This document shows, in pieces, positions 9,623-11,260 of a DNA stretch of 64,000 nt. This stretch comes from Moesziomyces globuligerus (lineage: Eukaryota > Basidiomycota > Ustilaginomycetes > Ustilaginales > Ustilaginaceae), in the NCBI GenBank assembly GCA_030849465.1, contig JARVLF010000013.1, positions 868,001 to 932,000 on the forward strand, read 5' to 3'. The number at the start of each line of letters is the position of its first letter. Within the stretch, counting starts at the first letter, position 1. Below the pieces are notes generated by a model. That model was not told the origin of the DNA. It made no database searches and saw nothing but the letters and a program-made list of their open reading frames with translations. The position numbers and the translations under genes are program-made.

Positions 9623-11260
9623 TTACTTCATGATCTTGCCGTCGGCGAAGGCCTTGCCATCGACGGTGGCCTCCCAGGCCATCATGTCCTCGAAGAACTT
9701 CTTGTCCTCGGGCTTGGTGATGTCGAGGGGGGTGATGGTGTACGAGTCGACATCGGGGGCGACCTCGAGGACGCTCTTGGGGTCCTTGCCGCGGCAGATC
9801 ATGACGCCGGTGATGAGGTTGTTGTTGTTCTCGCCAAAGACGCCGACGGAGCCCATGGTGTACTTGCGCGAAGCCTCGAGACGGGCAAAGAAGCCGCCGA
9901 TGAGGTTGTTCGACTGGAAGACGGCCTGCAGCTCGTCGTTGTACTTGTAGTCGAGCTTGACGATCGAGTAGCCCTCGTTGTCAAAGTGCTCAAAGAACCA
10001 GGGCAGCGCCTTCTCGCGCGTGTCCTCGTTCGAGTAGGTGCGCTTCCACTCGTCCAGGTTGAACGACGACTTGGGCAGGTCGTCCAGGGGGTTCCTGGGC
10101 TTGGGGGCCGGCGCGGGCTCGTCGTCCTCGTCGTCCTTGGGCGCAGCCTTGGGCTTCTCGGCCTTGGGCGCAGGGGCAGCCTTGGGCTTCTCCTCCTTCT
10201 TGGGCGCAACAAACTTGATGTTGTCCTCGGTGGGCTGGAAGTCCTTGTAGATGGGGACGCGCTGGCCATTGACGGTGTTGAAGTAGCGCACGACGTTGGG
10301 GTACTTGGAGCGGAAGTTGACACCGCCAAGGCGGCCGAAGACCATGCCGATGGCAGTAGCGACGTGGATGTCGGCGAGGGTGACACGGTGGTTCACGAGG
10401 AAGGTCTTGGTCTTGAGCTGGGCCTCGAGGAAGGCAAAGGCACGGTCGATGGTCTCCCACAGGCGCTGCTCCGAGGCCTTGTTGTAGGGAACCTTGTTGA
10501 GGCAGAGCAGGTAGAGCTGCACACCACGGTTGAGGATCTCCTCGTCGGCGAACGAGATCCACTGGTTGACGAGGGCGGCCGACTTGGCGTCAGTGCCGAG
10601 CAGCTTGGAGTTGTCAGAGAGACCGGCGACTGCGAGAGGGCGCAAGAGAAGGAACGGGAAGGTCAGTCAGAGGTGAACTGTGCCCTACACGTGGTAGCTC
10701 TGCGCTGCCTGCTTTGCCTGACCCGTGCCAAGTGCGCGAGGCGCTGCAACGGTGGGGATCAGGGCATTATGCTGAAAGAAGTATCCTCGACATGGATGAT
10801 TCGGACAGGGATAACTGTAAAAGATAATCTCATCATATAAGGCGTAGGCGGAGACGCCGGCGGCAAGGGCGGGGCGGGATGCAGCAGACGGGCGGCAAAG
10901 CAAGCAGGCGGAAGTAGAGCCGAGAGGGTGATTTGATACGTACCATAGCGGGTGATGGCGTTGCCCTCGAAGAGCGTGAAGCCGTCGGTGCCCTTGAAGC
11001 CGGGGATCTTGCCGTAGGGGAAGTTGGCAAGGTACTCGGGCTTCTGGGTGTCGCCCTTCATGGCCTGGGTCTCAACGACCTCGAGCTCGAGGCCATTGTA
11101 GGCAGCGGCGGCGATAGCCTGTGGGTCAAAGGAGTGGTATAAATCGAGCGGGTCAGTTGATGCATCCCTTGAAGTGGCGGTGAAGAGAGTGGACAAGGAA
11201 ACGTACCGCGTTGGTCTTGGGGTGGCCGACGTAGCCGAAGATCTGACCGATGGGAGCCAT
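9623..11260 (-). CDS. TEF4: Translation elongation factor eEF1B gamma subunit
   Basis: Subunit of the eEF1B exchange complex that recharges eEF1A with GTP. Exons in transcript order are 11207..11260, 10944..11118 and 9623..10629, giving 411 aa, the normal family length. Residues 1-200 form a glutathione-transferase-like domain. A Lys/Ala/Pro linker covers about 210-255 (EEKPKAAPAPKAEKP). The conserved C-terminal domain, about 258-411, begins PLDDLPKSSFNLDEWKR and contains ALPWFFEHFD. Donors are GTACGT in both introns. Intron 1 is 88 nt; intron 2 is 314 nt and hosts a predicted C/D snoRNA (see 10755-10841). In yeast the paralogue TEF4 hosts snR38 in its intron, so the host-guest pairing supports both calls. 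Confidence 0.97.
10755..10841 (-). ncRNA. snR38: C/D-box snoRNA, snR38-like, in eEF1B-gamma intron 2
   Basis: On the coding strand of the host intron there is a perfect C box ATGATGA (10830..10836). A D box CTGA lies at 10759..10762, so C-to-D length is 78 nt, normal for the class. Between them CAGTTATCCCTGT is complementary over 13 nt to the conserved large-subunit rRNA segment ACAGGGAUAACUG. It is followed directly by CCGA, which can serve as a degenerate D' box. Counting five nucleotides from D' selects the middle G of GGG. In E. coli numbering this is 2446, which corresponds to yeast 25S G2815, the known site of yeast snR38, itself encoded in the TEF4 intron. No strong terminal stem is visible, and the ends are set about 4-5 nt outside the boxes. 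Confidence 0.85.

Follow-up and report, generated by a model that had tools for sequence, protein, structure and literature searches.

The second intron of the eEF1B-gamma gene of the smut fungus Moesziomyces globuligerus carries a box C/D snoRNA that belongs with snR38/snoR38 and appears to have been kept in this place since the ancestor shared with Saccharomyces, a reading to which we give a probability of roughly 0.93. The element was studied in a window of 64,000 nt, that is, the whole stretch of DNA that was analysed (contig JARVLF010000013.1, positions 868,001 to 932,000), within an assembly of 18.5 Mb in 24 contigs. Unless a contig or locus is named, all positions given refer to this window.

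The host gene occupies positions 9623..11260 on the minus strand, with its ATG at 11260, its stop codon at 9623-9625 and three exons coding for 411 aa. When the spliced product was compared with Pfam, the EF1G domain was detected with 155.4 bits, together with GST_N and GST_C, which places the protein in the eEF1B-gamma family. Among the best 120 of 1281 matches, the named top relatives were EF1-gamma proteins of smut fungi with 75-82% identity (Ustilago hordei 82%, Pseudozyma hubeiensis 80%, Kalmanozyma brasiliensis 80% and Sporisorium reilianum 75%). The spliced reading gave 88 nt for intron 1 (11206-11119, minus strand) and 314 nt for intron 2 (10630..10943, minus strand), the same lengths as reported in the earlier note on this DNA. 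Intron 2 lies in phase 1 after Tyr76 (TAT G/GTACGT ... CAG/TC GCC), with GTACGT and CAG at its ends, and a CTGAC about 35 nt before its end resembles a fungal branch site. A compatible junction was recognized in 16 of the 120 relatives listed (best 120 of 1281 matches), in which the protein either starts at Val77 or reads into it, 14 of them by the start of the alignment and P0008 and P0013 by eye.

Within this intron, the core of the snoRNA spans 78 nt from the C box to the D box (10759..10836, minus strand, as are all the elements that follow). The C box ATGATGA (10830..10836) and the D box CTGA (10759..10762) conform to RUGAUGA and CUGA, and both are compatible with four relatives, in which the C box is read as Met-Met and the D box fits either the stop that ends three ORFs at ...MP or the residues NALI of the fourth protein, P0013. 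The 13-nt guide CAGTTATCCCTGT (10805..10817), antisense to the segment ACAGGGAUAACUG of LSU rRNA and compatible at all its positions in the four relatives, directly precedes a D'-like CCGA (10801..10804), in the register of the RF00213 consensus and as is expected of a D' guide. These elements and the 78-nt span were found just as the earlier note had described them, whereas the C'-like box TGTCGA (10787..10792), which Rfam aligns to the C' region of RF00213, was absent from it. Both D' and C' are non-canonical. In the former, the U of CUGA is changed to C, and at this second place U is excluded in all four relatives too (Arg in three of them, Pro in P0013). The stretch that runs from D' past C' (10804-10779), read as VRIIHVED in three relatives and as PNHPCRG in P0013, was found to be conserved like the guide; the D'/C' motif accounts for part of this conservation, and extra pairing with rRNA is possible.

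The covariance search suggested in the earlier note did detect the intron, yet below the curated threshold of the family. At 10843-10764, RF00213 (snoR38) scored 41.5 bits (an E-value of 1.2e-5 in the search of the intron region), covering positions 1-91 of the 91 of the model with gaps of 1, 5 and 6 positions, but its curated cut-off of 45 bits was not reached, and Rfam at the gathering threshold gave no match on the whole window. The element is thus snR38-like by its guide, register and host, which support the identity originally proposed, and stands below gathering-level membership of RF00213. In the genome-wide search, in which 62 of 242 first-look candidates were scored, intron 2 was the best of those scored (E 1.4e-4) and the next one reached 21.4 bits; as a control, the RF00213 search at E 10 also gave matches in 9/14 prokaryote genomes, none of them above the cut-off. 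Weaker matches at the same place were obtained with other C/D families, namely Afu_294 (24.2 bits), snR61 (22 bits) and Afu_328 of Aspergillus fumigatus (RF02403), in which the guide AGUUAUCCCUG is aligned and the D box falls on the same CTGA, with a score of 28.8 bits that is far below the 70-bit cut-off of that family.

The guide, in the form ACAGUUAUCCCUGUC, is identical to the RF00213 consensus, whereas the D box of the model falls on a degenerate CAGC in the smut intron, accompanied by a 7-nt terminal stem. This placement was rejected, as the relatives fit better the CTGA given in the earlier note, which is compatible in all four of them. The 5' arm of the Rfam stem, compared through the two residues that precede Met-Met, differs in 3/3 readable relatives (PY here versus ST in P0121, TQ in P0122 and TP in P0128), and its 3' arm is changed in one of the three, P0121 (SKMP for SIMP). 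Beside the intact CTGA, no terminal stem was found.

Across the 18.5 Mb of the assembly, the guide CAGTTATCCCTGT is matched exactly at a single place. For the C box and guide combined, the chance expectation is 0.0034 in 18.5 Mb on both strands, before any requirement for an intron or for a strand. When the pattern TGATGA N8-32 CAGTTATCCCTGT was sought in a 257-Gb prokaryote collection, 50 stretches were found versus 46.7 expected by arithmetic, some of the 50 being plainly related to each other (for instance, several records of the Shewanella/Colwellia type that share their spacing). Five stretches with the pattern were found in viral contigs. In 8 of the 50 chance loci, each searched whole, no match to RF00213 was listed up to E 10.

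With respect to the target, the fifth guide base from D' faces the second G of ACAGGGAUAACUG. This base is assigned to yeast G2815 through the correspondence of E. coli and yeast LSU numbering that we presume to hold (A2451 = A2820). The register claimed in the earlier note, with the target at the fifth nucleotide from D', agrees with a table in PMC8307265, in which 25S Gm2815, at the peptidyl-transferase centre, is listed with snR38. In a table of Hoeppner and Poole (PMC3511168), the relatives in RF00213 are grouped as one site, Gm2805 in Arabidopsis, Gm4362 in human and, in the numbering used there, Gm2812 in yeast. The guide RNA very probably marks the catalytic centre of the ribosome. A search for the exact 25S target segment in the 18.5-Mb assembly matched only the snoRNA itself, and the eukaryotic LSU segment was found in none of the viral contigs.

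Conservation was followed in protein-database ORFs that run through introns, so the relatives were compared as translations, in which the bases are partly ambiguous. A query made of the exon-2 read-through of the window itself (120 aa) retrieved 11 proteins. In 11/11, homology stops at Tyr76, and the residues that follow are compatible with a phase-1 GT splice site, as at the junction of intron 2. Three of them, P0121, P0122 and P0128, continue across the snoRNA up to a final ...MP, the point at which the window has its stop, formed by the TGA within the D box. Between the C and D boxes, 20/25, 24/25 and 25/25 of their residues, respectively, are identical to the window, compared to 11/41, 15/48 and 11/49 in the intron flank and to 30, 31 and 30 of the 38 residues that close exon 2. 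At the nucleotide level, 72/78, 77/78 and 78/78 positions from C to D are compatible, the same base being forced at 45, 46 and 45 of them. The fourth relative, P0013, comes from the exon-3 side with its C box 70 codons before the junction and reads the snoRNA in another frame, with 80/81 positions compatible when one inserted base, whose position was set to give the best fit, is counted as free. As two reading frames are used, one by P0013 and one by the other three, it is therefore the nucleotides and not a peptide that are conserved. The expectation of the earlier note that boxes and guide would be kept while the flanks drift was borne out, for the former in the four relatives and for the latter in three.

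The other eight exon-2 read-throughs (8/11) contain no snoRNA residues and end 5-53 residues into the intron. As the C box is met after 36-45 residues in the window and in the three positive proteins, most of them end too early, whereas three (44, 51 and 53 residues) reach within or beyond this range, and in these a snoRNA could follow downstream or be read in a different frame. In four of the eight the last residue is Lys, as a C box AAATGATGA would give in the stop frame, which is only suggestive. When further read-throughs were sought with the leader of P0013, only P0013 itself was recovered. Database entries of this type (P0121, P0122, P0128 and P0013), which read through an exon end, are usable as comparative intron data.

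These translations also bear on whether the conserved stretch could be a short coding sequence, retained with the intron or acting as a micro-ORF that ends at the D box, instead of a guide RNA. The window does have an open frame, MMRLSFTVIPVRIIHVEDTSFSIMP-stop, which three relatives preserve with 0-5 changes, but P0013 has compatible nucleotides in another frame (YSYPCPNHPCRG...). Moreover, the conserved stretch coincides with the segment from C box to D box, the guide is exactly antisense to rRNA and RF00213 scores at this place, so that a coding origin is hardly credible. A decayed snR38 pseudogene, with the working copy elsewhere in the genome, would account for the degenerate D' and C', for the lack of a terminal stem and for the RF00213 score below the cut-off, and the assembly may be incomplete. 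Nevertheless, neither a second exact guide nor, among the 62 of 242 candidates scored, a second strong RF00213 match was found in the assembly, and the change in D' is common to all four relatives. In addition, the C-to-D segment is conserved above exon 2 in 2/3 relatives and equally in the third (80% vs 79%). Decay is therefore very improbable, and a guide RNA of the snR38 kind is preferred.

In yeast, snR38 resides in the TEF4 intron and snR18 in TEF5(EFB1), according to PMC2705663, in agreement with the host named in the earlier note, which is eEF1B-gamma here and TEF4 there. The intron-deletion primers for TEF4 and EFB1 are also published in that source. The ends of the TEF4 primers translate to ALAIQFY/VANQVA, and the junction here reads AITRY/VAGL, which places both introns at the same codon; the yeast paralog in PDB (1nhy) aligns at the same junction motif. 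The smut intron is in phase 1, and the primers are compatible with phase 0 or 1 in yeast, between which they do not distinguish. The snR38 of Saccharomyces cerevisiae in TEF4 has the same target (Gm2815, PMC8307265), the same host gene and an intron at the homologous codon. In contrast, the smut element has CCGA as its D' and lacks a terminal stem beside the D box, and its likeness to snR38 comes from guide, register and host. A further relative is CD23 of Neurospora crassa, an intronic D' guide for 26S Gm2773 that the passage describing it lists with snR38.

Four further intron/snoRNA pairs of the yeast type were found in the genome. The EFB1 intron (473 nt) contains a U18-like C/D snoRNA (G000:C16:1119816-1119884, or 878-946 of locus L059), detected by RF00093 (SNORD18) with 26.2 bits compared to a cut-off of 41; it is the best match of the genome (E 0.089, the next being 19.8, with 59 of 919 candidates scored), and Rfam at the gathering threshold gave no match on this locus. 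The D' of this U18-like snoRNA also reads CCGA. From the published primers, the yeast junction reads KSYIEG/TAVSQA and the smut one KSYIDG/HSPSQAD, at the same codon and both in phase 2. The RACK1/ASC1 intron (379 nt) holds a U24-like C/D snoRNA (G000:C13:776627-776702, or 2190-2265 of L063), for which RF00069 (SNORD24) gave 32.1 bits (cut-off 41) and its best match in the genome (E 0.013; next 22.7; 59 of 1657 scored). The Rfam alignment of this RNA skips the C box, and GCGATGAAG stands just upstream. In yeast, U24 has ASC1 as its host.

The RPL7 intron (392 nt) contains on the minus strand an snR39/snR59-like snoRNA (G000:C12:595984-596074, or 1900-1810 of L060), which, with 32.7 bits (cut-off 55), was the sole match of RF00134 (snoZ196, R39/R59) in the genome up to E 10 (E 0.03; 55 of 1628 scored). 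Finally, an snR191-like H/ACA snoRNA was detected in the NOG2 intron (487 nt; 2324-2622 of L062, on G000:C16) by RF01263 with 25.0 bits (cut-off 46; E 0.025 within the 12.9 kb searched). All four score under the curated cut-offs. As the prokaryote controls at E 10 also gave matches (11/14 for SNORD24, 10/14 for SNORD18 and 8/14 for snoZ196, none over the cut-off), the evidence for these four pairs is their placement in the expected introns and not their score. All five yeast pairs checked agree (snR38/TEF4, U18/EFB1, U24/ASC1, snR39-59/RPL7 and snR191/NOG2); other yeast pairs, outside these five, are RPS22B/snR44 and IMD4/snR54. The length of intron 2 is plausibly explained by its snoRNA cargo, because the other four snoRNA-bearing introns measure 379-487 nt.

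A real snoRNA could also have been acquired by the eEF1B-gamma intron on two separate occasions, once in yeasts and once in smuts; the common host would then reflect a tendency of mobile snoRNAs to settle in highly expressed translation genes. In favour of this, the lineages compared are the smut side and yeast with none in between, and human snR38A has a host that we take to be a different gene. The human RNA is tabulated with its target Gm4362 in PMC3511168, and snoRNAs are described as mobile in the title of that source and in PMC8476143 and PMC12508059. However, the intron occupies the homologous codon in yeast TEF4, the EFB1/U18 intron shares both codon and phase 2 between yeast and smut, the RPL7 and NOG2 intron positions are common to yeast and two smuts according to PMC8476143, and five of the five pairs checked agree. 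Separate entry is thus unlikely, and the best reading of these sequences is that the snR38/eEF1B-gamma pair would have been inherited from the ancestor of Ascomycota and Basidiomycota. Such a shared ancestral pair, as claimed in the earlier note, is supported by the position of the TEF4 intron, by the four relatives and by the four further pairs in the genome.

In the proposed route, splicing of the eEF1B-gamma pre-mRNA, together with debranching, would set intron 2 free, and a snoRNP would form on its two boxes, C and D. Trimmed back to its bound ends, the RNA would be some 80-90 nt long, and its 13-nt element beside D' would then pair with ACAGGGAUAACUG, close to the peptidyl-transferase centre, to direct 2'-O-methylation of the G equal to yeast 25S G2815. 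Many yeast intronic snoRNAs depend on Dbr1, and in Fusarium graminearum five drop without it, including SnR38, a putative intronic snoRNA that is significantly decreased on Dbr1 deletion, according to PMC9606315. An RNase III step may be possible too, because an effect of Nop1 on the cleavage of SNR18 and SNR38 is mentioned in PMC13183374 where Rnt1 is discussed.

With no terminal stem beside the D box, a role is proposed for a candidate helix at the intron flanks, which may bring the boxes together or release the RNA. Its 5' arm CTGCTTGCTTTGCC (10894..10907, minus strand) would pair with the 3' arm GGCAAAGCAGGCAG (10705..10718, minus strand) over 14 bp with one G-U. The 14-bp helix was equalled by 2/1000 shuffles, its duplex energy by 12/1000 and its 9-bp Watson-Crick run by 68/1000. 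The external stem is only suggestive, because the fold of intron 2 as a whole does not stand out from that of shuffled sequences (z -1.22; 14/100 shuffles as good). In vertebrates, snoRNAs of this type can be served by external stems, a subject on which Darzacq and Kiss reportedly wrote in 2000. An example given in PMC12205218 is U74, in which such a stem can serve.

The RNA family and its yeast host were already known, and the smut element is a well-supported addition to them; added here are the homologous intron, an independent test of conservation and a wider set of pairs. A literature search, which covered mostly titles, beginnings of abstracts and passages, returned no statement on the snR38/eEF1B-gamma pair in Basidiomycota, although the pair may already stand in surveys such as 'The fungal snoRNAome' or Ooi 1998.

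The presence of an snR38-like RNA in one and the same intron of this gene in a smut and in baker's yeast, together with the four other pairs, provides a concrete case of certain introns being kept for their RNA cargo. It is reasonably probable that the five pairs (snR38/eEF1B-gamma, U18/eEF1B-alpha, U24/RACK1, snR39-59/RPL7 and snR191/NOG2) have stayed frozen in homologous introns from the common ancestor of Ascomycota and Basidiomycota onwards, their introns having outlasted massive loss in two lineages as the guest RNA was indispensable. That introns are kept for a snoRNA cargo has been argued in PMC8476143, where RPL7 and NOG2 of intron-poor fungi are the examples. With the present data the argument also applies to eEF1B-gamma and, probably, to eEF1B-alpha and RACK1, and the idea is directly testable across published fungal genomes.
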